In this document: positions 11,370-23,632 of the stretch, in pieces
How the letters are laid out: the number at the start of each line of letters is the position of its first letter
How positions within the stretch are numbered: the first letter of the stretch is position 1
IMG/VR virus record: IMGVR_UViG_3300025133_000380
Span: 1-33,608 of that record
DNA: 33,608 nucleotides
Direction: 5' to 3' (one strand)
DNA from: a virus
The notes under the pieces: generated by a model
What the model saw: only the letters and a program-made list of their open reading frames with translations
What the model was told of the DNA's origin: nothing
Database searches by the model: none
Made by a program: the position numbers and the translations under genes

Positions 11370-11813
11370 CTACACCTCATACCAATCTTTACCTTCAAAT
11401 AAAAGAGCTTCTGCATCTCTTCTTCTTATCAGACCTTCCAATACTTTTCCACCCGCTTTATTCCACCTTTTCATCTCACTGGGTACTTTACTATATTTTT
11501 CTTCGTTTAGAACTTCCAACATAGTAGAACTCTTAAGATTAGATGGACCGAGATTAAATGTCCAAGCAACTAAAGCGTCAAACTGATTTTGATCTAAAGC
11601 AACCTCTACAGCATTGTTTACATAACCTTCAAACTCTTCTAGATCTTCCGTCAGTAAATGGTCTGCTTCGTCTTGGTTTATTTTATCTCCTTGTTTTACC
11701 CCAGCCGTGTGTCCATAACCTATGGTCCAAACACCGCCACTACAAACATACGAATCAAGTTCGCAACCTTCAAATTTTTTAATTAAGGCTTTGCCTTCTT
11801 CTGAAATTTTCAT
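11370..11813 (-). CDS. Endolysin, GH24 lysozyme
   Basis: I chose ATG 11813 (147 residues) because GGAGG lies 9 bases before it; the frame extends upstream without such support. The product matches the phage lysozyme family (T4 / P22 gp19), which hydrolyses peptidoglycan between MurNAc and GlcNAc. Glu15 in the FEG motif and Thr30 in WTIGYGHT sit at the spacing Glu-8-x-5-Thr. The middle position is Cys24 rather than Asp, a known natural variant of this triad. GYGHT and the later AWTFNLG and RRRDAEALLF segments are also family features. There is no N-terminal signal or SAR segment, so it should need a holin to reach the wall. It follows the lipoprotein gene by one base. Confidence 0.92.
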   Translation of the reverse strand: MKISEEGKALIKKFEGCELDSYVCSGGVWTIGYGHTAGVKQGDKINQDEADHLLTEDLEEFEGYVNNAVEVALDQNQFDALVAWTFNLGPSNLKSSTMLEVLNEEKYSKVPSEMKRWNKAGGKVLEGLIRRRDAEALLFEGKDWYEV

Positions 11814-11814
11814 A

Positions 11815-12192
11815 CTACTGTTCCTCCGTTTCTGATACAGTAACTTTTCTATAATACACAACCACTTCTTTAAGCTCACCTATATACCTCTTTAATTCCT
11901 GCATATTATACGCCATGAGTTCATAATCTGGAACAGACATAGCAAAAAACACCACCTGACCATGCTCTTTGTCAACTCTGCCTAAAAATTCTTCAAGGTT
12001 TTTATCACTCACCACGTACCAATAAGGCTCTTTTAAGTCTATTTCCCTTGGCATAACAGGCTGAACTATAGTTCTCTCTATAGGTTTAGTGATAACTTCG
12101 ACTTGTTGTTTACTTGGGATTAGACTGCAACTGCAGACCATCATCAAGATCGTCGATGTTACGACTAAGTTCTTCAATGCTGTTAAATACAT
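11815..12192 (-). CDS. Outer-membrane-type lipoprotein, candidate o-spanin
   Basis: I chose ATG 12192 (125 residues), which has GGA about 8 bases upstream and gives a clean signal peptide; ATG 12204 and TTG 12222 are alternatives. The N-terminus has one Lys, a hydrophobic core and a VCSC lipobox (Cys at about 22), predicting lipidation. The mature part has a Pro/Ile-rich stretch followed by PYWYVVSDKNLEEFLGRV and a helical C-terminus. The first 83 nt overlap the end of the i-spanin gene in another frame, as in many Rz/Rz1 pairs, and the lysozyme follows. Longer than typical o-spanins, so a different phage lipoprotein is possible. Confidence 0.6.
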   Translation of the reverse strand: MYLTALKNLVVTSTILMMVCSCSLIPSKQQVEVITKPIERTIVQPVMPREIDLKEPYWYVVSDKNLEEFLGRVDKEHGQVVFFAMSVPDYELMAYNMQELKRYIGELKEVVVYYRKVTVSETEEQ

Positions 12193-12517
12193 TTTTAGTT
12201 CCATTATTAACTTTAGGTTCAAGTAATCCAGGTTTTGCTGCTGCTGTTTTACTTAGATTATGTCTTTTGAAAATATCTAGATATCGAGTCATTTCTAATT
12301 CTATTTCTTGATTCTTGGATTGGAGGGTTAATAGCCCTTCGGTTTGTTTTTTAAAGTCAACCTGTAGTTGCTCTATTGCTGCTTTCTGTTCTTGGTTTCT
12401 TATTTCAAATGCTTGGTTCAAGGCAGATAGACTAGCGTTTTCGTTCCATAAGAAATATAAAGCTACTCCAAGAACTAAAACAACTCCTGCCAAAACTTTG
12501 CTTAAAACATCACCCAT
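12110..12517 (-). CDS. i-spanin-like (Rz-like) protein
   Basis: I chose ATG 12517 (135 residues), which overlaps the preceding stop as TAATG with AGGAG 13 bases upstream. The product has one N-terminal membrane segment (VLAGVVLVLGVALYFLW) and then a long charged coiled coil (about residues 28-95, rich in E/K/Q/L). That is the topology of an inner-membrane spanin reaching into the periplasm. Its 3' end overlaps the lipoprotein gene by 83 nt. With the lipoprotein it would fuse the two membranes at lysis. The family is recognised from topology and context, as spanins are poorly conserved. Confidence 0.68.
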   Translation of the reverse strand: MGDVLSKVLAGVVLVLGVALYFLWNENASLSALNQAFEIRNQEQKAAIEQLQVDFKKQTEGLLTLQSKNQEIELEMTRYLDIFKRHNLSKTAAAKPGLLEPKVNNGTKNVFNSIEELSRNIDDLDDGLQLQSNPK

Positions 12518-12693
12518 TACGAAAGCATTGCTCCTAAAATTTGTGAGCCAATAATTAAAACGTATAGTCCCCATATCATCTGTTCCATTCGAACAAATCT
12601 TTTAGAACCAGACTCTAGTCTGTTTTCTATTTGTTTAAATCTAAGTGCACAAATTTCTTCATGCTGGTCCAATTTTGTTTTTCTAGTCGCCAT
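12517..12693 (-). CDS. 58-residue tail-anchored membrane protein
   Basis: ATG at 12693-12691 opens a 58-codon frame that ends with TAA at 12519-12517. It begins MATRKTKLDQHEEICALRFK and ends with a single hydrophobic segment (MIWGLYVLIIGSQILGAML). The start lies 11 nt inside the end of the cyclase gene, and the stop overlaps the i-spanin ATG (TAATG), so it fills the gap exactly. The topology (charged coiled N-terminus, C-terminal membrane anchor) resembles XhlA-like or holin-accessory phage proteins. No Shine-Dalgarno sequence is seen, so translation probably depends on coupling. A lysis role is inferred from position. Confidence 0.65.
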   Translation of the reverse strand: MATRKTKLDQHEEICALRFKQIENRLESGSKRFVRMEQMIWGLYVLIIGSQILGAMLS

Positions 12694-14452
12694 TTTTAAT
12701 TGTATATATTTGTAAAGGTTTCTCTTTTCCCTTAACTTTTATTGGTTCCAGTAATTTTAACTCAAAATTGCAACTTTTTTTAGTAGTATCGCCAATTAGT
12801 ATGTCTTCCCCCACTTCTTTGGTTGCAGATTCTAGTCTTGCTGCAGTGTTTACAGCATCGCCAATTGCCGTATAATCAAACCGTGTTTCACTTCCCATGT
12901 TCCCAATAACTGCGTATCCTGTGTTAACTCCGACGCCTATCGCTACATCTATGTCGGCTTCTTTTATGTTTTTCTGTATCTCTCTTGCTGCTGCAACTGC
13001 TTTATTTTCATGTCTTTCAAGGTCTAATGGAGCATTAAAGATTGCCATCATTGCGTCGCCAATATACTTATCCACCATACCGCCATATTTTTGTACCGCT
13101 TTTTGTTGTATGGTTAAGGCTTCATTCATAATTTTAGTTACTTCTTCTGGTTCAAGTGTTTCTGACATGGCTGTAAATCCTCTTACGTCTGTGAATAAAA
13201 AAGTACAAAATCTTTTTTCTCCGCCTAATTTTAAAAGTTCGGGGTTATCTTGCAGTTTTTTAACCTGAGCAGGATCTAGATAGTGTTCAAACTGTTTCTT
13301 AATCTGTTGTCTAAGTTTGTATTGTTCTCTAAATCTAATGTAGAAAACCACAGCCCCCACTATAAACTGTGCAAGCAGTGCCCAACTAACATCTATTAAA
13401 AGCCCGTTCTTTATTAAATAAAACCCTCCTAGAGCCGTAGAGAAGGATATAAGACCGCCTAGTACAACCCCCCACGTTATACCTAAAAAGGTCAATACAG
13501 ACCATATAAGAGCGACTGTAGCCCCATATATAATAATTTCTAAGGAAATAGCCCAGTCTGGTATTCGAGGACTGTTTTGTATTAAAATAGATTCGGATAA
13601 TGCTGCTTGAATTTTATGTGGTTCGAGCAGACCAACAGGAGTTGCAATTTGAGGCATAACACCTTCTGCTGTTACCCCAACGAACACAAACCTACCTTCA
13701 ATGTCTAGTTCTTTTGTATATAACTCACGAAGATTGAATTCAGGGGTATCGACCCAACTAATCCATTTTCTTCCTAAAGAGTCTGTAGGAACTGGAGGTA
13801 ATCCCCTTACCCGTATCTCCTCTACACCGTTTTGGTTTGTTTTAATCACATATGTATCTGCGCCTGCTAACACTTTTAGTACCTCAGCACCGTAAGCAGA
13901 AACCCAACCATCAGGTGTTCTTAACAACAAAGGCATTCTTCTAACTAACTGGTCTACTTCTGTAGGAGCAACTGCTATGCCCTCAAAAGCACTTTCACGG
14001 AACAAAGGAATGTTCTGTATAACACCTTTTGCTTTAAAACCACCACGGTCTTCACCCAATATAACTGTGCCTGTTGTTACAGGGTATGTCCCATTTTCAT
14101 TTTCAAAAGTTGCTAAAATACTTGGGGCAGAAGCCAGACTTTCAGCAAACGCTAAATCTCCGCCAAAACGATCTGGTTGTGGAAAAGCAATAACCCAGCC
14201 CACACCCAAAGCACCTTTTTCAATAAGTTTGTTTTGTATTTGTGCTAATCTTTTTCTGGGGAAGGGGTATCCGTTTTCTTTTTGAACATCTTTTTCGTCT
14301 ATTGATAATATTGAAAAATAATTAGAAACTTCTTTTTCTTCAACGAGTGCGTCAAAAATTCTTAGTTTAAGTATTTCTAGAGGAACCCACTGCTGAGTAA
14401 GAGGAACTCCTAATAAAACTAAAAAAGCTAATAGTTGTAAAAATTTAGTCAC
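12683..14452 (-). CDS. CHASE2-domain class III adenylyl cyclase
   Basis: An intact 589-residue membrane cyclase, taking GTG 14452 as start (TTG 14461 is possible; neither has a clear ribosome site, and both overlap the curlin stop). An N-terminal membrane anchor (about 3-21) is followed by a periplasmic CHASE2 sensor (about 25-295), three membrane segments (about 303-322, 325-347, 352-373), a linker helix, and the cytoplasmic class III catalytic domain (about 410-560). Metal ligands Asp422 (FTDVRGFT) and Asp466 (IGDA) are present. So are base-selecting Lys462 and Thr528 and transition-state Asn535 and Arg539 (VNTAARLE). Lys plus Thr predicts ATP as substrate and subtype IIIb. Dimerisation is required in this family. 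It is the last gene of the curli-like block. Confidence 0.93.
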   Translation of the reverse strand: MTKFLQLLAFLVLLGVPLTQQWVPLEILKLRIFDALVEEKEVSNYFSILSIDEKDVQKENGYPFPRKRLAQIQNKLIEKGALGVGWVIAFPQPDRFGGDLAFAESLASAPSILATFENENGTYPVTTGTVILGEDRGGFKAKGVIQNIPLFRESAFEGIAVAPTEVDQLVRRMPLLLRTPDGWVSAYGAEVLKVLAGADTYVIKTNQNGVEEIRVRGLPPVPTDSLGRKWISWVDTPEFNLRELYTKELDIEGRFVFVGVTAEGVMPQIATPVGLLEPHKIQAALSESILIQNSPRIPDWAISLEIIIYGATVALIWSVLTFLGITWGVVLGGLISFSTALGGFYLIKNGLLIDVSWALLAQFIVGAVVFYIRFREQYKLRQQIKKQFEHYLDPAQVKKLQDNPELLKLGGEKRFCTFLFTDVRGFTAMSETLEPEEVTKIMNEALTIQQKAVQKYGGMVDKYIGDAMMAIFNAPLDLERHENKAVAAAREIQKNIKEADIDVAIGVGVNTGYAVIGNMGSETRFDYTAIGDAVNTAARLESATKEVGEDILIGDTTKKSCNFELKLLEPIKVKGKEKPLQIYTIKNGD

Positions 14453-15170
14453 TTTGATCAATTGTTACTGTTTTAGTACAATTGGTTACACAATTATAAC
14501 TAACAGTAATACTTTTATTTGTTGTACCTGATTGACTGGCGGTTACATCATAGTCATCTGTGTAAAAATTTAGTCTCATATAGTGATCTCCACTTCCAGT
14601 CTGGGTAATCGTAGCATCGTTATTATCTGCTGAGTTGCTTGCATATATTTTAGCGTAATGTTCTCCAGAACCTGACTGAGTAATACTAAACTCAGAACTA
14701 TCCCCAAAAGCTCTAATTTCGCCTTCTTTGTCATCTCCAGTTTGAGTTATAGTGTATACATTGTTATCACCTTGCATATAGATTTCAGCATCATTATCAT
14801 TGCCGTCTTGAACTATGTCCATATCATTGCCGTCATCGTCTGCATCTATATAGCCGAAGTTATCATTGCCGTCTTGGTCTATTTTGTATTCATTACCTGT
14901 GTGGTTTGCTACTTGACTGTATGCTCTAGCCGTGTTGTTAGTACCTTCCTGATCTATATCAATTTCGGCATTACTACAGTTATGAGCAGGATATGCACCT
15001 TCAGACAACCCACACCAAACTCTAGCAGTATTACTCGTCCCTATCTGATCAATATGTATAAGGGAAGAACTGCCTTTAGTTCTCACCTCCACAGAATTAT
15101 CCCCTGCTTGTACAAAAGGACAACTGTGTAAAAATAAAATACTAATCAGACTGATTGATAATGATTTCAT
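14445..15170 (-). CDS. Secreted curlin-repeat protein (CsgA/CsgB-like), second copy
   Basis: I chose ATG 15170 (241 residues): GGAGG precedes it by about 8 bases, while the upstream in-frame GTG codons sit inside that ribosome site. A signal peptide (SLISILFLHSCPFVQA) is followed by eight or nine imperfect curlin repeats of the form I-x-Q-x-G-x-x-N-x-A, for example HIDQIGTSNTARV, DIDQEGTNNTARA, TITQTGDD and SITQSGSG. The chain is very acidic (many D/N). Cys pairs flank the repeats (near WCG...NCS and NCVTNC). It ends in TIDQSD, close to the INQSD end of the FecR protein. Curlin repeats form stacked beta-hairpins of extracellular amyloid. The gene overlaps the FecR gene by 29 nt. Whether it is subunit or nucleator is unknown. 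Confidence 0.85.
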   Translation of the reverse strand: MKSLSISLISILFLHSCPFVQAGDNSVEVRTKGSSSLIHIDQIGTSNTARVWCGLSEGAYPAHNCSNAEIDIDQEGTNNTARAYSQVANHTGNEYKIDQDGNDNFGYIDADDDGNDMDIVQDGNDNDAEIYMQGDNNVYTITQTGDDKEGEIRAFGDSSEFSITQSGSGEHYAKIYASNSADNNDATITQTGSGDHYMRLNFYTDDYDVTASQSGTTNKSITVSYNCVTNCTKTVTIDQSD

Positions 15171-16245
15171 TTTCACCACCTCCGTTTAATGTTACGTTTA
15201 TAAATCTTCCTGCAGACAACATCTGGATATTATACCCCGCAGTTTTATCCAACTCTAAGTCTATTGTGTTCTCAACTTGTCTTACTAATGTAAAAAACTC
15301 ACCTTCTACAAAAGTATATACCTGAGCGTTTTGGTCAAATCTAGGAATAATACCCTCTATTTTTACTCCGTCTAGTTCTCCTGAGGCACCCTCATCTCTT
15401 CCTCCAGCTGAAACCTCTTCTATCATTTCTAGTAAGTCTTGTAGAAAATCAACAGCCAACAAATCTATGTCTAGTCTTGTAATTTCTTCTTGTAGTTCGT
15501 CCTTAGACAAATCACCATCGTCATCCAAATCATTTTCTTCTAAAAAATCCGCATCTAAAACATTACTAGAGCTTTGGCTTTGTTCGTCCAGTGCTTGTTC
15601 TACTTCTTCGGGAGGGTTAACAATTAGAAGATTATCGATAAAGTTTAAAGACATGTTCAATAATTGAACAGGTTTTGTGGGAGGACTTTCACTAACACTG
15701 ACCATTGTTGCTTGGTATGGCTCATTGAGAACCTCTATACCAGCCATTGTTTCTACAGTTATTTCACCAGAAGAAGTTCCATCAGGTTTAGGAAGAAGTA
15801 TCACTAACGACCTTCCTATTTCATCTACTGTAGTTGTGAAGTCGGTGCCTCTAATTGCAATTGTTGCGCTAGGGGTTCTTATAGAAATGTTTTCTTTATC
15901 TATTCTTCCCAATGCGCCAGTAATAAATCTGGCTGTTCCGCTTGCCATCTGGAGTGCCATTTTGCTTTTACTTGGATCAGGGTCATAAATATACTCATCG
16001 ATAACAATCTTAGAATGTTCAGTGAGCCGTATAACAGAAGAATCAAGAAACTCAATACCGATACGACCATCACCAGTGCGGACATCATCATAGCTAAAGA
16101 TATCCAAATCAGTTGTTGCCAGTAATTTATCTGACTGATCCGCTCGTAAAATTTCTCCACTACCTCTCAACTCGGAAATTGTGCCTATTTCAGAATAAGC
16201 ATTAATATGTATGACCCCAAATAAAACTAACAGCCACTTGCGCAT
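15142..16245 (-). CDS. Periplasmic FecR-domain protein with EF-hand
   Basis: A 367-residue exported protein (signal peptide about 1-17). Residues about 50-140 form a FecR domain: DDVRTGDGRIGIEFLDSS, RLTEHSKI, a MASGTARF segment and TPSATIAIRGTDF are characteristic. Residues 239-250 (DLDDDGDLSKDE) are a canonical 12-residue EF-hand loop with acidic ligands at 1, 3, 5 and Glu at 12, so calcium binding is expected. A beta-rich C-terminus ends in IIINQSD, like the curlin-2 terminus. No sigma factor or TonB receptor gene is nearby, so this is not a classical iron-uptake FecR. FecR-domain proteins are often encoded beside CHASE2 cyclases, which suggests it may feed the cyclase sensor. It overlaps curlin-1 by 19 nt. 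Confidence 0.85.
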   Translation of the reverse strand: MRKWLLVLFGVIHINAYSEIGTISELRGSGEILRADQSDKLLATTDLDIFSYDDVRTGDGRIGIEFLDSSVIRLTEHSKIVIDEYIYDPDPSKSKMALQMASGTARFITGALGRIDKENISIRTPSATIAIRGTDFTTTVDEIGRSLVILLPKPDGTSSGEITVETMAGIEVLNEPYQATMVSVSESPPTKPVQLLNMSLNFIDNLLIVNPPEEVEQALDEQSQSSSNVLDADFLEENDLDDDGDLSKDELQEEITRLDIDLLAVDFLQDLLEMIEEVSAGGRDEGASGELDGVKIEGIIPRFDQNAQVYTFVEGEFFTLVRQVENTIDLELDKTAGYNIQMLSAGRFINVTLNGGGENEIIINQSD

Positions 16246-16913
16246 TGGTCTATGTCTATAGTCCCGTTGCTTGTGGTTGCTGTTATAACCACCACACCCG
16301 AAGTGCTACCAGTACCGTTGGTCTGGTCTATGTCTATATTATTTGTGTTTCCTGTAATATCTCCTGTGATTGAGTGATCTGCATTTCCCGTCTGGGTGGT
16401 GTCTATATCGTTTGAGTCGCCATCTACATCCCAGTTATTAATACAACCAACTACTTCACAAGTAGCATTCAAATCATTTGATGTTCCTGCTATGATTATG
16501 TCTTGATTACCTGCGGTGGCTGTTGCTGCAGCCCCTTGGGTAAAAGTTACTGTGTTTGAATCTCCTGTTGCAGCGTAGTCAAAATCAGTGTTAGCAACGT
16601 CTCCTGTTGCTCCCAGTGCTAAAGTCGTCGTATTACTATCACCAGTTGTGCTTGCTGTAAACGAGGTACTATTACCCTGAGCCACTGAAGCTGCCAGTGT
16701 GTTGCTATCCCCCACTTGATCTATATCAACAGTCATTGATGTACCAGTAAAAGTAGCTCTAGCTTGTGATGTACCGACCACATTACTATTACCGATCTGG
16801 TCAATATTCATTGTTAATCCTGTACCAGACTGCGTTATGTATATATCGTTATTGGCTGCAAAAATCGCAGGGGTCACTAAAACCAATAATAATAGTTTCC
16901 AAATATGTTTCAT
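16227..16913 (-). CDS. Secreted curlin-like protein, first copy
   Basis: A 228-residue protein with AGGAGG five bases before ATG 16913. The signal peptide (KLLLLVLVTPAIFA) is cleaved after about residue 19. The mature chain is G/S/T/N/D-rich with repeated I-x-Q-x-G and G-x-SN elements: YITQSGTG, NIDQIGNSN, DIDQVGDSN and NIDIDQTNG. Spacing between repeats is looser than in curlin-2, and several repeats lack the Gln. Two Cys pairs occur (CEVVGC near the middle, CASGC at the extreme C-terminus). It lies 13 bases after csgG and overlaps the FecR start by 19 nt. I infer a secreted amyloid-like or beta-solenoid substrate of the adjacent CsgG pore; an unrelated repeat-rich adhesin is possible. Confidence 0.75.
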   Translation of the reverse strand: MKHIWKLLLLVLVTPAIFAANNDIYITQSGTGLTMNIDQIGNSNVVGTSQARATFTGTSMTVDIDQVGDSNTLAASVAQGNSTSFTASTTGDSNTTTLALGATGDVANTDFDYAATGDSNTVTFTQGAAATATAGNQDIIIAGTSNDLNATCEVVGCINNWDVDGDSNDIDTTQTGNADHSITGDITGNTNNIDIDQTNGTGSTSGVVVITATTSNGTIDIDQCASGC

Positions 16914-16926
16914 TCTTCCTCCTGGC

Positions 16927-17754
16927 TTAGTCTTTCTCGAACTGCTCGTAGTTAAAATCCCACAATTCTTTTTCTAAGCCTTTCATAATTAAAGTGTAGA
17001 CCGCCTCTTCAATCGCTGATCTAGTGGCATAACCAACAGCTTCATTCTGACTGTATCCTGTCTCTACTTCAACGAGTTCCGTGCCTAATTCAACGAAACG
17101 AAACACATCTCGACTGACACCCGCACTCAATATTGTTTTACTCACCATACAGTTTATCATAACTTCCCCTGTTTGCACAAGAACTGCTCTTAAAGAAACT
17201 GTAATCTCATCTTTGCGCCATTGGTTGCTTGAACCGATTCCTAAGTATCTAGCTCCGTTTCCACCTGTTTCCACATTGGTGTCATACTGAACTATTCCTC
17301 CTTCTATAAGGATACCTGCGAAGAGTAACGGTTTTAGCGTATTCCCGTTTTCTCCGTTATATGTTTTTCTAGTGTTTTTTATAAGTTGTCTTTCTTTAGT
17401 TAATGCGTCTAAGTTTTTTCTTTCTACTACCGCAAACCAATTTCCTTTTCCCGCACTTCTTAAAGCGTCTATAAGATAGTTATCTGCTCCTTGTGTGACC
17501 GCTGTACTAAATAAAGCCATCTTTTGAGAACTTTTCCTTTGTCCTGTTAAATCTTGAAAACTGTAGACAGCAACAACTGCTTTTTGCATAGGTGGGGGAA
17601 GCTTTTCTAGTTTTGTTTGTGTTGGTCTAACTGTTTCTGGTTCTTCACTACACTCTAACCAACTAATACAACCTGTGTGACCAACAGGCGCAAGACTAGC
17701 ACACCCCTGTAGTATTGAAAATACTAAAACTAAATACCACAATCTTCTGAACAT
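16927..17754 (-). CDS. csgG: CsgG, curli secretion pore lipoprotein
   Basis: A 275-residue lipoprotein: signal peptide with LQGC lipobox (Cys18). The body matches CsgG, the nonameric outer-membrane channel that exports curlin subunits. VAVYSFQDLTGQ, FSTAVTQGADNYLIDALRS, VVERKNLDALTKERQLI, GARYLGIGSS, SKTILS and DVFRFVE all align with E. coli CsgG from memory. In the constriction loop the Phe (E. coli Phe56) is kept as Phe82. The Tyr51 and Asn55 positions are not conserved and the loop appears one residue longer, so pore selectivity may differ. The membrane hairpins are full length, so no truncation is apparent. The gene overlaps csgF by 25 nt. Confidence 0.93.
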   Translation of the reverse strand: MFRRLWYLVLVFSILQGCASLAPVGHTGCISWLECSEEPETVRPTQTKLEKLPPPMQKAVVAVYSFQDLTGQRKSSQKMALFSTAVTQGADNYLIDALRSAGKGNWFAVVERKNLDALTKERQLIKNTRKTYNGENGNTLKPLLFAGILIEGGIVQYDTNVETGGNGARYLGIGSSNQWRKDEITVSLRAVLVQTGEVMINCMVSKTILSAGVSRDVFRFVELGTELVEVETGYSQNEAVGYATRSAIEEAVYTLIMKGLEKELWDFNYEQFEKD

Positions 17755-18263
17755 ATTCCAAATATACCTATGGGTATAACAATAGTTGTGATATTACCGT
17801 CTGCGTCTATTACTGTTAGTGTTATGTTTATACCATCGTTTACAAAAGTTATTACACTACCTTCTAATTCTATGCTTCCTCCTGTTCCGCCACCCTCGGA
17901 GTTAAACAGGCTTTCTGCGATGTCTCTAGACAATTGACTATAGATCCTGCTTTCTAAGTTTCTTAAAAACTTGGCGAGTGTTGTGTTTTCTGCTTCTCTT
18001 TCTGCTTCTTTTAAAGCGTCTTCAACTTTTTGTGCTTCTTCGTCTCTTCTTGTTTTTTCTTGTTCATCAATTGTTAGGTAATGCGAAGAAGTACCTACAC
18101 CACTAAAACTGGGGCTTTTAAACTCATGTACTATTTCATCTGCAAAAACTTTATTGTGTATAACAACAACCAACACCACAATCAATATGGATGAAAAATA
18201 AAGCAACGCTATTGGTTCTCTATGTCTTTTTATTTCTTGTGGGTTTGTTTTCTTTATTTTCAT
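17730..18263 (-). CDS. csgF: CsgF-like curli assembly factor
   Basis: A 177-residue exported protein. A long basic N-terminus and a hydrophobic core end at VFA, with predicted cleavage after about residue 41. The mature N-terminus HEFKSPSFSG corresponds to the CsgF segment (FRNPNFGG in E. coli) that threads into the CsgG barrel. A charged helix (about 65-95), LESRIYSQLSRDIAESLF and a beta-rich tail (VNDGINITLTVIDADGNITT) match the rest of CsgF. It is larger than E. coli CsgF by a charged helical insertion and a C-terminal Cys pair (CSEDC). In the family it couples the CsgG pore to surface nucleation. The start overlaps the upstream membrane gene by 44 nt. Confidence 0.85.
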   Translation of the reverse strand: MKIKKTNPQEIKRHREPIALLYFSSILIVVLVVVIHNKVFADEIVHEFKSPSFSGVGTSSHYLTIDEQEKTRRDEEAQKVEDALKEAEREAENTTLAKFLRNLESRIYSQLSRDIAESLFNSEGGGTGGSIELEGSVITFVNDGINITLTVIDADGNITTIVIPIGIFGICSEDCGI

Positions 18264-18489
18264 CTTCTTTTAATTGTAAAACAGTATTCACTTTTTCTTT
18301 TAATCTTATCATATCTTGATCTAAAAGACGTAATTGGTCAGTTAATCTTATAATGGTGTTTTTCATTTCCTCTACGGCTGGGTCTATTACTTTCGTAATG
18401 GTTTGCCAAACAAAATAAACAAAGTATCCCAGACCGACAACCATAACCACAGGAAAACCGAAGTCCGACACCAATTGGACTATGTCCAC
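18220..18489 (-). CDS. Small membrane protein with coiled coil (paralogue 2)
   Basis: An 89-residue protein from a GTG start with AGGAG 6 bases upstream; the GTG overlaps the preceding stop (TAGTG). One membrane segment (FPVVMVVGLGYFVYFVW) leads to a coiled coil (about 35-75) and a K/N-rich tail. The N-terminus pattern MD-I/V-...-L-...-G-F/L-PV-...-YF is shared with the gene directly before it, so the two look like diverged tandem duplicates. Topology resembles small phage holin-like or BhlA-like proteins. It overlaps csgF by 44 nt and so may be co-translated with it. Function unknown. Confidence 0.6.
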   Translation of the reverse strand: MDIVQLVSDFGFPVVMVVGLGYFVYFVWQTITKVIDPAVEEMKNTIIRLTDQLRLLDQDMIRLKEKVNTVLQLKEDENKENKPTRNKKT

Positions 18490-18782
18490 TAATCTCTCCT
18501 AGCGTCTATCTTCCCATCTTCTACAAAATTTTCTGCTCTTGCGATCCTGTCTAAATCAGGGGGTATACCTAAAGCCGAAGAAACGCTTGTGTCTATTCTA
18601 ATAATATCATTATTCATAATAGAGGCTCTAGTGATGAGCATTTTAGAAATTCCTTGGATAGTTTTAATCTCTGAAACAAGATTTCCCATCAGTTGTTTCA
18701 TGATGAGAAAAATAAAATATGCCATTATAAGACCTCCCGCCACAGGAAGTCCTAGTTCAGCTATTAAAGCAAAAACATCCAC
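18489..18782 (-). CDS. Small membrane protein with helical tail (paralogue 1)
   Basis: A 97-residue protein from a GTG start that overlaps the preceding stop (TAGTG), with AAGGAAG upstream. One membrane segment (LPVAGGLIMAYFIFLIM) is followed by a helical region with I/M/S heptad-like spacing and a charged C-terminus. It resembles the following gene at the N-terminus and in topology. Placement next to oxygenase, membrane and lysis genes suggests a holin-like or envelope role. No named family recognised. Confidence 0.6.
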   Translation of the reverse strand: MDVFALIAELGLPVAGGLIMAYFIFLIMKQLMGNLVSEIKTIQGISKMLITRASIMNNDIIRIDTSVSSALGIPPDLDRIARAENFVEDGKIDARRD

Positions 18783-19366: not shown

Positions 19367-19540
19367 TTATTTACCTGCCTTGTCTTTTGCCTTACCGATA
19401 TTAAATGCGCATAGATCAATTAGCTTGTAAAGTTTACCAATCCATACATCATCTTTAGGGGTGGGTGTGACGGCAGCGATAATGCTACTCACACTAATAA
19501 TTGCCATAATTATTGCAATCGTGTTTGCAAATATTTCCAT
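19367..19540 (-). CDS. 57-residue single-span membrane protein
   Basis: ATG 19540 overlaps the oxygenase stop (TAATG), with GAGGT nearby, giving 57 residues. One membrane segment (NTIAIIMAIISVSSIIAAV) is followed by a PTPKDDVW turn and a basic helical tail. The PTPKDD-x-W motif after a helix recurs in small phage membrane proteins in my recollection. It lies in the cluster of small membrane genes before the curli block, so holin or antiholin is a reasonable guess. Confidence 0.6.
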   Translation of the reverse strand: MEIFANTIAIIMAIISVSSIIAAVTPTPKDDVWIGKLYKLIDLCAFNIGKAKDKAGK

Positions 19541-20250
19541 TATTGTACCTCTTCTATTTCTGTTGGTTGTTCTTGAATATCCCAGCAATTAAGATTAGAG
19601 GCGACAGTTCTTCTTTCGCCTTTTCCCTTAAAAGGATACACCATATGTTGCAACCAAGAGGGAAAAACCAACAACTTTCCTACTTCTGGTTGCATAACAA
19701 AAGATTGCGGAGGTCGCAGTCTCTCTGTGTTCATCAGTTCGTTTCTGCCGTAATTAAAAGCTATATACCCATCACAATCACCAGACGAATTGTATAAAGA
19801 GTAGTTACCATCGCCAGCAGTTGGTTGGTCTAGTATCTGTTGCGGAACCTTAGTCCAGCTAGTTGTCGATATACCCATAATGGTTTTAGTGCCGTGATCG
19901 TGTATAGGGTTATAGTCACCTTCGTAACTGTGCACTGACCAAGTTTCATCAACCGCTACGGCTTTGGGTGCTTTTAACATTGTTCCAATATTCTGAGAGA
20001 AGAAATTAATATAATCTGCCCCCAAGCCACATATAAAATTCGTGTATTCTTTTACTCTTGGATCATCATTATCCAGAAGTAATTGTTCACCTTGTGCTAT
20101 TTGCCCAACTAAAGTGTCAGCTAATGATTTTTTATTTTTATCCTCAACATATTCATCCAGGTAATCATTTAACTCCTCAACCATACTCTCTGGCATTTGT
20201 GTCTCCATGACATAGACACTAGGCATGTTGTGCACCGTTACTTCAGCCAT
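19540..20250 (-). CDS. Putative 2OG-Fe(II) oxygenase
   Basis: A 236-residue protein with the pattern of phage 2-oxoglutarate/Fe(II)-dependent oxygenases of the double-stranded beta-helix fold. NPIHDHG (His117-Asp118-His119) gives the first metal ligands. FPSWLQHMVYPF (His202) gives the distal His, and GERRTVASNLN supplies the Arg (213/214) expected to bind 2OG. WSVHSY and the hydrophobic strands around them fit the core. Enzymes of this type hydroxylate protein, nucleic-acid or small-molecule substrates; nothing here shows which. It sits between fibre and membrane genes, abutting a 106-residue structural gene by two bases. Related proteins are frequent in marine phages. Confidence 0.75.
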   Translation of the reverse strand: MAEVTVHNMPSVYVMETQMPESMVEELNDYLDEYVEDKNKKSLADTLVGQIAQGEQLLLDNDDPRVKEYTNFICGLGADYINFFSQNIGTMLKAPKAVAVDETWSVHSYEGDYNPIHDHGTKTIMGISTTSWTKVPQQILDQPTAGDGNYSLYNSSGDCDGYIAFNYGRNELMNTERLRPPQSFVMQPEVGKLLVFPSWLQHMVYPFKGKGERRTVASNLNCWDIQEQPTEIEEVQ

Positions 20251-20575: not shown

Positions 20576-23500
20576 TTATTCCTCTATTTTAGATTTTAAT
20601 TCCTCAACTTGCGCTGAGAGTTCTTTTACTGCGTTTACTAAGTACCAAGTAAGGTTATCGGGGTCAACCGAATAACACCCTGTTGATTCTTGTTTAACGA
20701 CATCGGGTAAAACTTCCATAATTTCTTGTGCAATTACACCAAGTTGTGTGCCTTCTTTACCTATAGCTGCACTCTGCGGGAGTTCCTCATCAACTTCTTC
20801 TGGTAAACGATATTCAAAGTTTCTTACACGAATTTGATTAATCTTTTCAAGTCCATCGTTATTATCTTCTATATTCTTTTTGATTCGTCTGTCAGATGTG
20901 GTTGACCACGATGCAGAGTTATTACCCGCATAAACACCACCACCTATAGGATTAATAAAACCAGTTTGTGATCCTTTACCTGTGGTGTTATATCCAATTA
21001 CTATCTCATAATTGTTATCATCAGCAGAAGGAGCAGCACTCATTCCTAGATATATTCCACCCGTTCCTTCCACAATATTAGCCCCAGAATCATAACCCAC
21101 ACAGGTGTGCCTAACTCCAGTTGTAATACTTGTACCAGCGAATGTCCCAACTCCTGTGTTGTATTCACCTGTGGTGTTTGCTAATAATGCTCTTCTTCCG
21201 AATGCAGCGTTGTAAGAAGCAGTGGTGTTATTACCTAAAGCATTTTCTCCTACACCTGTATTATAGTTTCCAGTGGTGTTTGCCCCCATAGCATTTTCAC
21301 CCATTGCCACTATTTCACCACCCGTTGTATTGGCATCCAGGCATTGTCTGCCAACCGCAACATTACCTGTACCTGTGGTGTTTGCTACTAAAGCATCATA
21401 ACCAATTGCTGTGTTGTTACTTGCGGTTGTATTCGCCAATAAAGCACGAGCTCCTAATGCTACATTTTTATCTCCTGTCGTGTTAGCACCTAAAGCACCA
21501 TCTCCTATAGCAGTGTTTTCTTCTCCGTCGGTAAGAGCATCAAGACAATTAGCGCCGACCGCTACGTTGTTTCCGCCCGTTGTGGCACTTGTTAAAGCAC
21601 CATAACCTACGCCTACGTTGTTTGAGCCTGTGGTGTTAGCATCTAGTGAATTAGCACCGACTGCCGTATTATAAGCACCTGTGGTGTTTGCCATTCCAGC
21701 CGTTCTACCAACAGCTACATTATATTGACCTGTGGTGTTTGCTTTAAGTGCTTCTCTACCAACGGCAGTGTTGTAGTTCGCAGTAGTGTTTGCTCCTAGA
21801 GCATCATAACCCACTGCAACATTCTGACCAGCTGTTGTATTGGCATCTAGGGCATTATTACCAATTGCTACGTTTTGTTCACCTGTGGTGTTTGCGTTTA
21901 AAGAATTATAACCAACTGCGGTGTTGTTTGAAGCTGTTGTTGTTGCCTGTAAAGCACCACCACCTAGTCCTGTGTTATAACTACCTGTAGTCGCAGTTCT
22001 TAATGAGTTAATACCTAAAGAAGTGTTTTCACCACCTGTAGTTATAGCCAAACTTGAATCGTGTCCTATCGCTGTGTTTCCAGCACCAGTTGTATTTGCC
22101 GTTAAAGCATCATCGCCTACAGCCACGTTTGTGTTGCCAGTTGTATTTGCTGCTAGTGCGTCTTTACCTACAGCAGTGTTGCTTGTACCTGTGGTGTTTG
22201 CTGTTAAAGCTGAATAACCGACTGCTGTGTTGTTATCGGCTGTGGTATTTGCTCCTAAAGCACTTCTGCCTAATGCAGTGTTTGATGTGCCTGTGGTATT
22301 AGCATCAAGAGAATAAGCACCAAATGCTGCATTATTTGAAGCAGTAGTATTTGCTGTCATTGCGTTTAGACCAAAAGCTGCATTACCAGCACCTGTGGTG
22401 TTTGCATCTAAAGAATTATGCCCTACGGCTGTGTTTGAATCGCCTGTGGTATTCGCTCCCATAGAATTATAACCAAGAGCAGTATTTTCTGAACCTGTGG
22501 TATTAGCATCAAGAGAATAAGCACCAACAGCTACATTTGCTGTTCCTGTGGTGTTTTCTTTTAAAGCAATGTACCCAAGTGCTGTGTTATTTGATGCTGT
22601 TGTGCTTGCTGTTAATGCACCCTTACCAACCACAACATTGTAATTACCTGTGGTGATAGCATCTCCAGCATCCTTTCCTATAGCTATGTTGTGTGCGCCT
22701 GTGGTTATTGCTCCACCTGCATCTTTACCAATTCCTATATTATTAGAACCTGTGGTGACTGCATCTAGGGCATTAGCTCCAACGGCAACATTATTTGCAC
22801 CTGTCGTGTTTGCTGTTAAAGCTGTATAGCCAACTGCGGTGTTACTGTCTGCTGTGGTGTTAGCATTTAAGGCTTGATAACCAACCGCTACATTTGATGT
22901 TCCCGTTGTATTTGTAAATAAAGCTGACCTTCCAACAGCAACGTTGTTGTCTGCTGTTGTGTTTGAACTAAGCGCAGATTTACCAAGAGCAACATTTGAA
23001 TCACCCGTTGTATTAGCATCTAGTGAATCTGCTCCCACTGCGACATTTCCAGCCCCTGTTGTGTTTACACCCATTGCAACATCGCCCACTGCAACATTGT
23101 CCGATCCTGTGGTGACTGCATCCATTGCAGAATCACCTATGGCTACGTTATCCGTTCCTGTCGTAATTGCTGTACCGAGTGCGCCAGAACCCAGTCCGAC
23201 ATTTCCTGTACCAGAAGTCATAGCCAATACGTCTGTTACTGCTGCACCTGAACCTGCGCCATCCGCAACAAGCATTTTAATACTGCCATTGGGTATAACT
23301 ACATTTGATCCTGTTCCCTGTGAAATTGTTACTGTAGCTCCTGCACTGTTTTTAATAACCCAACACTTATTAACTGTGTTGGGGGCTAAAGTTACAGTAC
23401 ATGCTTGTGATAAAGAACCTGTAAGCGTAAGTGCCATTGCTCTAGCAGCATCACTTGCCCCATCTTGCATCGTAATAGTTGCCGTAGAAGCATCGGATAG

Positions 23501-23632
23501 TGCTTCCGAACCGCTACCAAAGGCTTCTGCAATAAGTTCGAGATTTGTATTAGTTGTTGTTCCCCAAGTTCCACTACCGTCTCCAGTAGCCATCTCGTTT
23601 AATCTTAGGTCATTAACGTATGTGCTTGCCAT
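20576..23632 (-). CDS. Tail fibre with YadA-like head repeats and S74 self-cleaving chaperone
   Basis: A 1018-residue adhesin. Residues 1-140 form an N-terminal module (TYVNDLRLNEMATGDGSGTW) recurring in marine phage fibres and likely attaching to the tail. Residues about 141-871 are some 43 imperfect 17-residue repeats of the kind (x)NTAVGxxALxANTTG, resembling the left-handed beta-roll head repeats of trimeric autotransporter adhesins, so a trimeric stalk is expected. The C-terminal ~110 residues are a peptidase S74 intramolecular chaperone. SDRRIKKNI gives Ser913 and, five residues later, Lys918, matching the catalytic dyad spacing of endosialidase; the family cleaves itself off after trimerisation. 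GVIAQEIMEVLPDVV and a final coiled coil are also typical. It probably recognises the host surface. Confidence 0.88.
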   Translation of the reverse strand: MASTYVNDLRLNEMATGDGSGTWGTTTNTNLELIAEAFGSGSEALSDASTATITMQDGASDAARAMALTLTGSLSQACTVTLAPNTVNKCWVIKNSAGATVTISQGTGSNVVIPNGSIKMLVADGAGSGAAVTDVLAMTSGTGNVGLGSGALGTAITTGTDNVAIGDSAMDAVTTGSDNVAVGDVAMGVNTTGAGNVAVGADSLDANTTGDSNVALGKSALSSNTTADNNVAVGRSALFTNTTGTSNVAVGYQALNANTTADSNTAVGYTALTANTTGANNVAVGANALDAVTTGSNNIGIGKDAGGAITTGAHNIAIGKDAGDAITTGNYNVVVGKGALTASTTASNNTALGYIALKENTTGTANVAVGAYSLDANTTGSENTALGYNSMGANTTGDSNTAVGHNSLDANTTGAGNAAFGLNAMTANTTASNNAAFGAYSLDANTTGTSNTALGRSALGANTTADNNTAVGYSALTANTTGTSNTAVGKDALAANTTGNTNVAVGDDALTANTTGAGNTAIGHDSSLAITTGGENTSLGINSLRTATTGSYNTGLGGGALQATTTASNNTAVGYNSLNANTTGEQNVAIGNNALDANTTAGQNVAVGYDALGANTTANYNTAVGREALKANTTGQYNVAVGRTAGMANTTGAYNTAVGANSLDANTTGSNNVGVGYGALTSATTGGNNVAVGANCLDALTDGEENTAIGDGALGANTTGDKNVALGARALLANTTASNNTAIGYDALVANTTGTGNVAVGRQCLDANTTGGEIVAMGENAMGANTTGNYNTGVGENALGNNTTASYNAAFGRRALLANTTGEYNTGVGTFAGTSITTGVRHTCVGYDSGANIVEGTGGIYLGMSAAPSADDNNYEIVIGYNTTGKGSQTGFINPIGGGVYAGNNSASWSTTSDRRIKKNIEDNNDGLEKINQIRVRNFEYRLPEEVDEELPQSAAIGKEGTQLGVIAQEIMEVLPDVVKQESTGCYSVDPDNLTWYLVNAVKELSAQVEELKSKIEE
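21020..23212 (-). repeat. About 43 imperfect 51-bp coding repeats in the fibre gene
   Basis: The DNA encodes about 43 consecutive 17-residue units, nearly all ending ANTTG, ANTTA or AITTG. Units diverge at synonymous and variable codons, so identical runs are short. Several pairs are close (for example units ending SLDANTTG). There are no spacers, so it is not a CRISPR array. Copy number may vary by recombination, changing fibre length. Confidence 0.9.

Follow-up and report, generated by a model that had tools for sequence, protein, structure and literature searches.

A predicted CHASE2 class IIIb-type adenylyl cyclase encoded in the curli module of an HTVC023P-type phage

Why does a marine phage carry a receptor-type nucleotide cyclase next to genes for curli export? 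The 33.6-kb virus record studied here (the window, i.e. the whole analysed stretch of 33,608 nucleotides) holds such a cyclase ORF. The mechanically called ORF spans 12683..14461 and begins with TTG. The GTG at 14452, which overlaps the stop of the upstream curlin gene by a few bases, is likely the better start, because the viral homologues carry Met at this column of the alignment. The resulting gene (12683..14452) encodes a protein of 589 aa composed of CHASE2, membrane helices and a predicted class IIIb adenylyl cyclase. An earlier note on this DNA had given these coordinates correctly; they refer to the minus strand.

Pfam placed a CHASE2 domain at residues 13-316 (1e-24) and a Guanylate_cyc domain at residues 416-586 (6e-21), each match passing its curated threshold. 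Numbered from the GTG, Asp422, Lys462, Asp466, Thr528, Asn535 and Arg539 are all present, and they include the two metal Asp and the transition-state Asn and Arg of the class III cyclase fold. The earlier note had claimed a phage-encoded CHASE2 class III cyclase with a complete active site; the two domains, the six residues at the numbers it gave and the phage genes described below bear this out. In the AlphaFold2 model (mean pLDDT 90), the catalytic domain matched solved class III cyclases (1.8-2.4 A rmsd to P. aeruginosa CyaB, 3r5g). CyaB (P. aeruginosa) and CyaC (Spirulina), both of class IIIb, are among the nearest solved catalytic domains by sequence and by structure, and Thr528 aligned with the CyaB motif DYTIIG in the sequence match. 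These two enzymes share the catalytic domain and the residue set of the phage cyclase, but their solved chains are catalytic-domain constructs, whereas in the phage protein CHASE2 and membrane helices precede the catalytic part. At the second base-selecting site Thr528 replaces Asp, the mark of subclass IIIb. The IIIb subtype had been proposed before, and both Thr or Ser at 528 in 82 of 83 viral copies and the match to CyaB and CyaC agree with it; the mark is no proof of a bicarbonate response.

Hydropathy and the AlphaFold2 model gave the same layout of helix, periplasmic domain, helix block and cyclase. The predicted topology, which also draws on a K/R-rich segment after the last helix, consists of one N-terminal helix, approximately 280 periplasmic residues, three membrane helices and a cytoplasmic cyclase. 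This is the architecture of a CHASE2 receptor cyclase, and the sensor is predicted to face the periplasm, as had been suggested. Judged from its sequence, the protein is a class IIIb-type CHASE2 cyclase that would be catalytically active. The structure is also close to that of the guanylyl cyclase Cya2 of Synechocystis, which could suggest a guanylyl or mixed cyclase instead of an adenylyl cyclase; however, Lys462 with Thr or Ser at 528 is the adenine-selecting pair in class III enzymes, and we consider a guanylyl or mixed activity quite unlikely.

At least 593 viral relatives of the cyclase were found. Among 83 viral copies, D422, K462 and D466 were invariant, N535 was present in 82 (the sole change is Ser, in Melnitz) and R539 in 82 (absent just in one truncated copy). 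The variable position among the six was 528 (Thr in 58 copies, Ser in 24, Asp in one), the other five being nearly invariant. Chance is excluded by the number of relatives and the constancy of these five residues. The median dN/dS between viral copies was approximately 0.20 (794 pairs) and 0.18 in the cyclase part, rough values given the large distances between pairs. The gene is kept under purifying selection in viruses. Decay or an assembly artefact was rejected on the basis of this ratio and of two other contigs that hold the region at 99.6% nucleotide identity. Could the gene be a passenger with no selected function? Its patchy occurrence in the wider HTVC023P-type group, reported by Wittmers et al. 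2022 (PMC9599517), would fit, but purifying selection, a near-invariant active site and a conserved position make this very improbable.

The virus is an HTVC023P-type podovirus, with a capsid protein 74% identical to that of DSL-LC04 and 69% to that of HTVC023P, and its capsid, virion, spanin and lysozyme genes confirm that it is a phage. The GC content was 40.7% in the window, compared to 28-32% in three sampled SAR11 loci (31-46% in viral relatives), and a SAR11 host is therefore not assured.

The cyclase is the last gene of a curli (T8SS) module in the order csgF, csgG, curlin, fecR, curlin, cyclase, all on the minus strand. The CsgF curli chaperone (17730..18263, Pfam 7.5e-13) and the CsgG outer-membrane curli pore (16927..17754, Pfam 1.7e-55) are followed by a first curlin-like protein (16227..16913), whose curlin repeat match is weak (E 0.013, below the cut-off) and which sits where HTVC008M and Melnitz have their curlin-associated protein. 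Then come an exported FecR-domain protein with a signal-peptide-like N-terminus, in a conserved partner position (15142..16245), and a second, CsgA/B-like curlin-repeat protein (14445..15179, PF07012, Pfam 1.7e-16). Two small single-helix proteins of 89 and 97 aa (18220..18782, minus strand) are conserved upstream of csgF; in appearance they are membrane proteins with one helix and a charged tail. Wittmers et al. (PMC9599517) place a histidine kinase at this position, but Pfam detected no kinase domain in the two proteins, even at E 1. A 2OG-Fe(II) oxygenase (19540-20250, minus strand) adjoins the curli block, and a 1018-aa protein (20576-23632, minus strand) with many short NTTGxxNVAVG-type repeats and a Peptidase_S74 endosialidase chaperone end is a probable tail fibre.

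The module order is the same in HTVC008M, in Melnitz and in the module of Wittmers et al. (PMC9599517). Viral loci found through the cyclase or through CsgG share it almost without exception where their flanks are long enough. The CsgG-anchored search gave 21 further viral loci; FecR and the cyclase were present in all 19 that reach far enough downstream, while the remaining two (L200 and L201) end inside the first curlin gene. Searching a genome collection with the viral alignment gave six loci, several of them resembling phage contigs binned into MAGs. Contigs L085, L111, L112 and L114, from Pelagibacter and Maricaulis MAGs, hold the phage curli module and probably belong to phages; L114 is assigned to a Pelagibacteraceae genome, and the Maricaulis csgF contigs L111 and L112 have phage-type neighbours. 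Five alphaproteobacterial csgF loci (L107-L110, L113) were considered as cellular curli operons with FecR and a cyclase, and none was credible.

Downstream of the cyclase lie lysis genes (11370..12574, minus strand): an Rz-like spanin, an overlapping small lipoprotein-like ORF and a phage lysozyme. As the cyclase is directly upstream of these genes, it is probably expressed late; the spanin, lipoprotein-like ORF and lysozyme may share this late transcription. A promoter scan performed no better than shuffles.

The cyclase itself is not new. The pelagiphage T8SS cyclase that Wittmers et al. (PMC9599517) described inside the phage curli module is the same gene; it likewise follows FecR and the second curlin, and it occurs in the same HTVC023P-type podoviruses. 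The copies of the cultured myophages HTVC008M (AGE60353.1) and Melnitz (QZI94833.1) are annotated as adenylate cyclase and are 36% and 33% identical to the window cyclase respectively. Wittmers et al. make no mention of CHASE2, label FecR an iron-dependent regulator and, in the accessible text, draw no link between FecR and the cyclase as a cellular pair.

High-scoring alphaproteobacterial CHASE2 genes on long contigs were examined together with their surroundings, which gave 38 cellular regions, each up to 19 kb long; 37 of these regions contained a cyclase. A profile built up from the phage FecR then served to search them for FecR. A FecR-domain gene was present within 3 kb of the cyclase in 22 of the 37 regions, often adjacent, and Pfam confirmed FecR in all five cellular neighbours checked. 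These 37 regions contained no FecR beyond 3 kb of the cyclase and no CsgG. The pairing has been reported in Campylobacterota (PMC9239204), and in Burkholderia a CHASE2 histidine kinase occurs with FecR (PMC5192318). Two SAR11 genomes (L183 and L184) carry CHASE2 with a different output domain and FecR approximately 1.3 kb away; L183, the one checked, is a CHASE2-SpoIIE. In the phage FecR, Pfam found the FecR domain alone after the signal-peptide-like start, and not the cytoplasmic anti-sigma domain that a FecR anti-sigma regulator would have at its N-terminus; this weakens the published 'iron-dependent regulator' label. Given the frequency of the cellular pairing, the phage FecR and cyclase look like an imported bacterial pair rather than an iron regulator. 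Residues 239-250 of the phage FecR form a perfect EF-hand-like loop, DLDDDGDLSKDE; a calcium-binding loop as a FecR feature was rejected, as other FecR copies are without it.

In the tree, the viral cyclases, including the HTVC008M and Melnitz copies, formed one clade with the window cyclase (100/100 support) nested in alphaproteobacterial CHASE2 cyclases. The phage proteins have approximately 590 aa, compared to approximately 750 aa in these cellular relatives. The best explanation is that the phage cyclase came from an alphaproteobacterial lineage of CHASE2 cyclases with fecR as a habitual neighbour. CyaD1, CyaD2 and CyaK of S. meliloti combine CHASE2 and a class III cyclase like the phage protein, and SMc02177, a FecR gene, shares a chromosomal neighbourhood with CyaD1 (SMc02176) and with Clr (SMc02175), a regulator (PMC5498481).

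Does the cyclase answer to its neighbours? Curlin export or contact between cells could load FecR, or the signal could come from the CsgG/CsgF pore, so that CHASE2 would be activated and cAMP would report the curli state, an idea that the earlier note had raised in more general form. The genes adjoin in nearly all viral loci, FecR and CHASE2 cyclases are close in cellular genomes without CsgG nearby, and the Campylobacterota and Burkholderia pairings point the same way. However, pairwise identities of CsgF, CsgG and FecR correlated with each other (rho 0.82-0.87), whereas cyclase identity tracked CsgG at rho 0.50 and FecR at 0.64, in a set that is mostly cyclase-anchored and in which the range of cyclase identity is thereby narrowed. 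Discordant loci occurred in both directions: in ten loci CsgG and FecR were approximately 40-47% identical to the window and the cyclase 67-69%, while in two loci CsgG and FecR were approximately 58-59% identical and the cyclase 36%. These values are suggestive of a cyclase that is exchanged between curli modules more readily than csgF, csgG and fecR are. Moreover, the S. meliloti FecR is required for the phenotype but dispensable for signal perception (PMC5498481), so FecR need not belong to the sensor. We consider a response to FecR or CsgG/CsgF possible, at somewhat less than even chances.

A cAMP signal would need a reader. No cyclic-nucleotide-binding protein (PF00027) was detected in 38 virus records, i.e. 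the window, the complete HTVC008M and Melnitz genomes and 35 others, many of which are fragments. PF00027 matches were present in 11 of 148 Pelagibacteraceae genomes. Typing of three of these proteins gave one CRP-type regulator, one fusion to an ABC transporter and one fusion to an acyltransferase; most of the remaining proteins resemble the acyltransferase fusion in score and share its 870-aa open frame. Thus a CRP-type regulator was shown in one of the 148 genomes, with three of the 11 matches typed. Class III cyclases were found in two of the 148, both on contigs with the phage curli module. The earlier proposal that cAMP reports to the infected cell is weakened by the 38 virus records and by the single CRP-type regulator. 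If SAR11 is the host, cAMP would be a messenger without a known reader. The S. meliloti circuit, by contrast, has the cAMP receptor Clr. The phage might bring a cAMP signalling branch into a host without a cellular class III cyclase and a CRP-type receptor; cAMP might then time curli display and lysis through an unrecognised receptor of host or phage or through a change in the nucleotide pool, which we regard as unlikely.

The absence of PF00027 from the window also bears on a Pycsar-like cyclase that would make cCMP or cUMP against rival phages. PADLOC PycC models did match the cyclase (best 3.9e-29), but ordinary bacterial CHASE2 cyclases scored about equally on them, and the Pycsar reading was rejected after this control. 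The purine-selecting Lys462 and Thr528 are retained, no cyclic-nucleotide-binding effector lies nearby, and the four neighbours tested with PADLOC gave a sole match at E 0.0085. A Pycsar role is scarcely credible.

We consider it likely that the protein is a receptor-type class IIIb adenylyl cyclase, tuned to the envelope or to curli, from an alphaproteobacterial FecR-linked lineage. From the domains, active site, selection, context and origin observed here, together with the predicted fold and topology, we infer catalysis, signal and output as follows. The CHASE2 domain would take a signal in the periplasm of the infected cell; the membrane helices and a conserved linker helix would relay this signal to the cyclase, which would work as a homodimer in the cytoplasm and convert ATP to cAMP. 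The cyclase would most likely tune the response of the cell or of the phage to the envelope or curli state. There is a precedent in S. meliloti, where CHASE2 cyclases raise cAMP when they sense a plant protein through the outer-membrane protein NsrA (PMC13001267). Against this mechanism stands the lack of a known cAMP receptor in the searched virus records and in nearly all searched Pelagibacteraceae.

The phage cyclase family was already published; what is added here is the bacterial FecR pairing, the rarity of CRP-type regulators in the Pelagibacteraceae genomes searched and the suggested reassortment. Curli modules occur in phages that are abundant in the ocean. As SAR11 apparently lacks a cAMP reader, it matters whether infection raises cAMP and what would bind it. 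The likeness of the phage FecR and cyclase to a pair known from bacteria speaks for sensing in the periplasm rather than for iron regulation.
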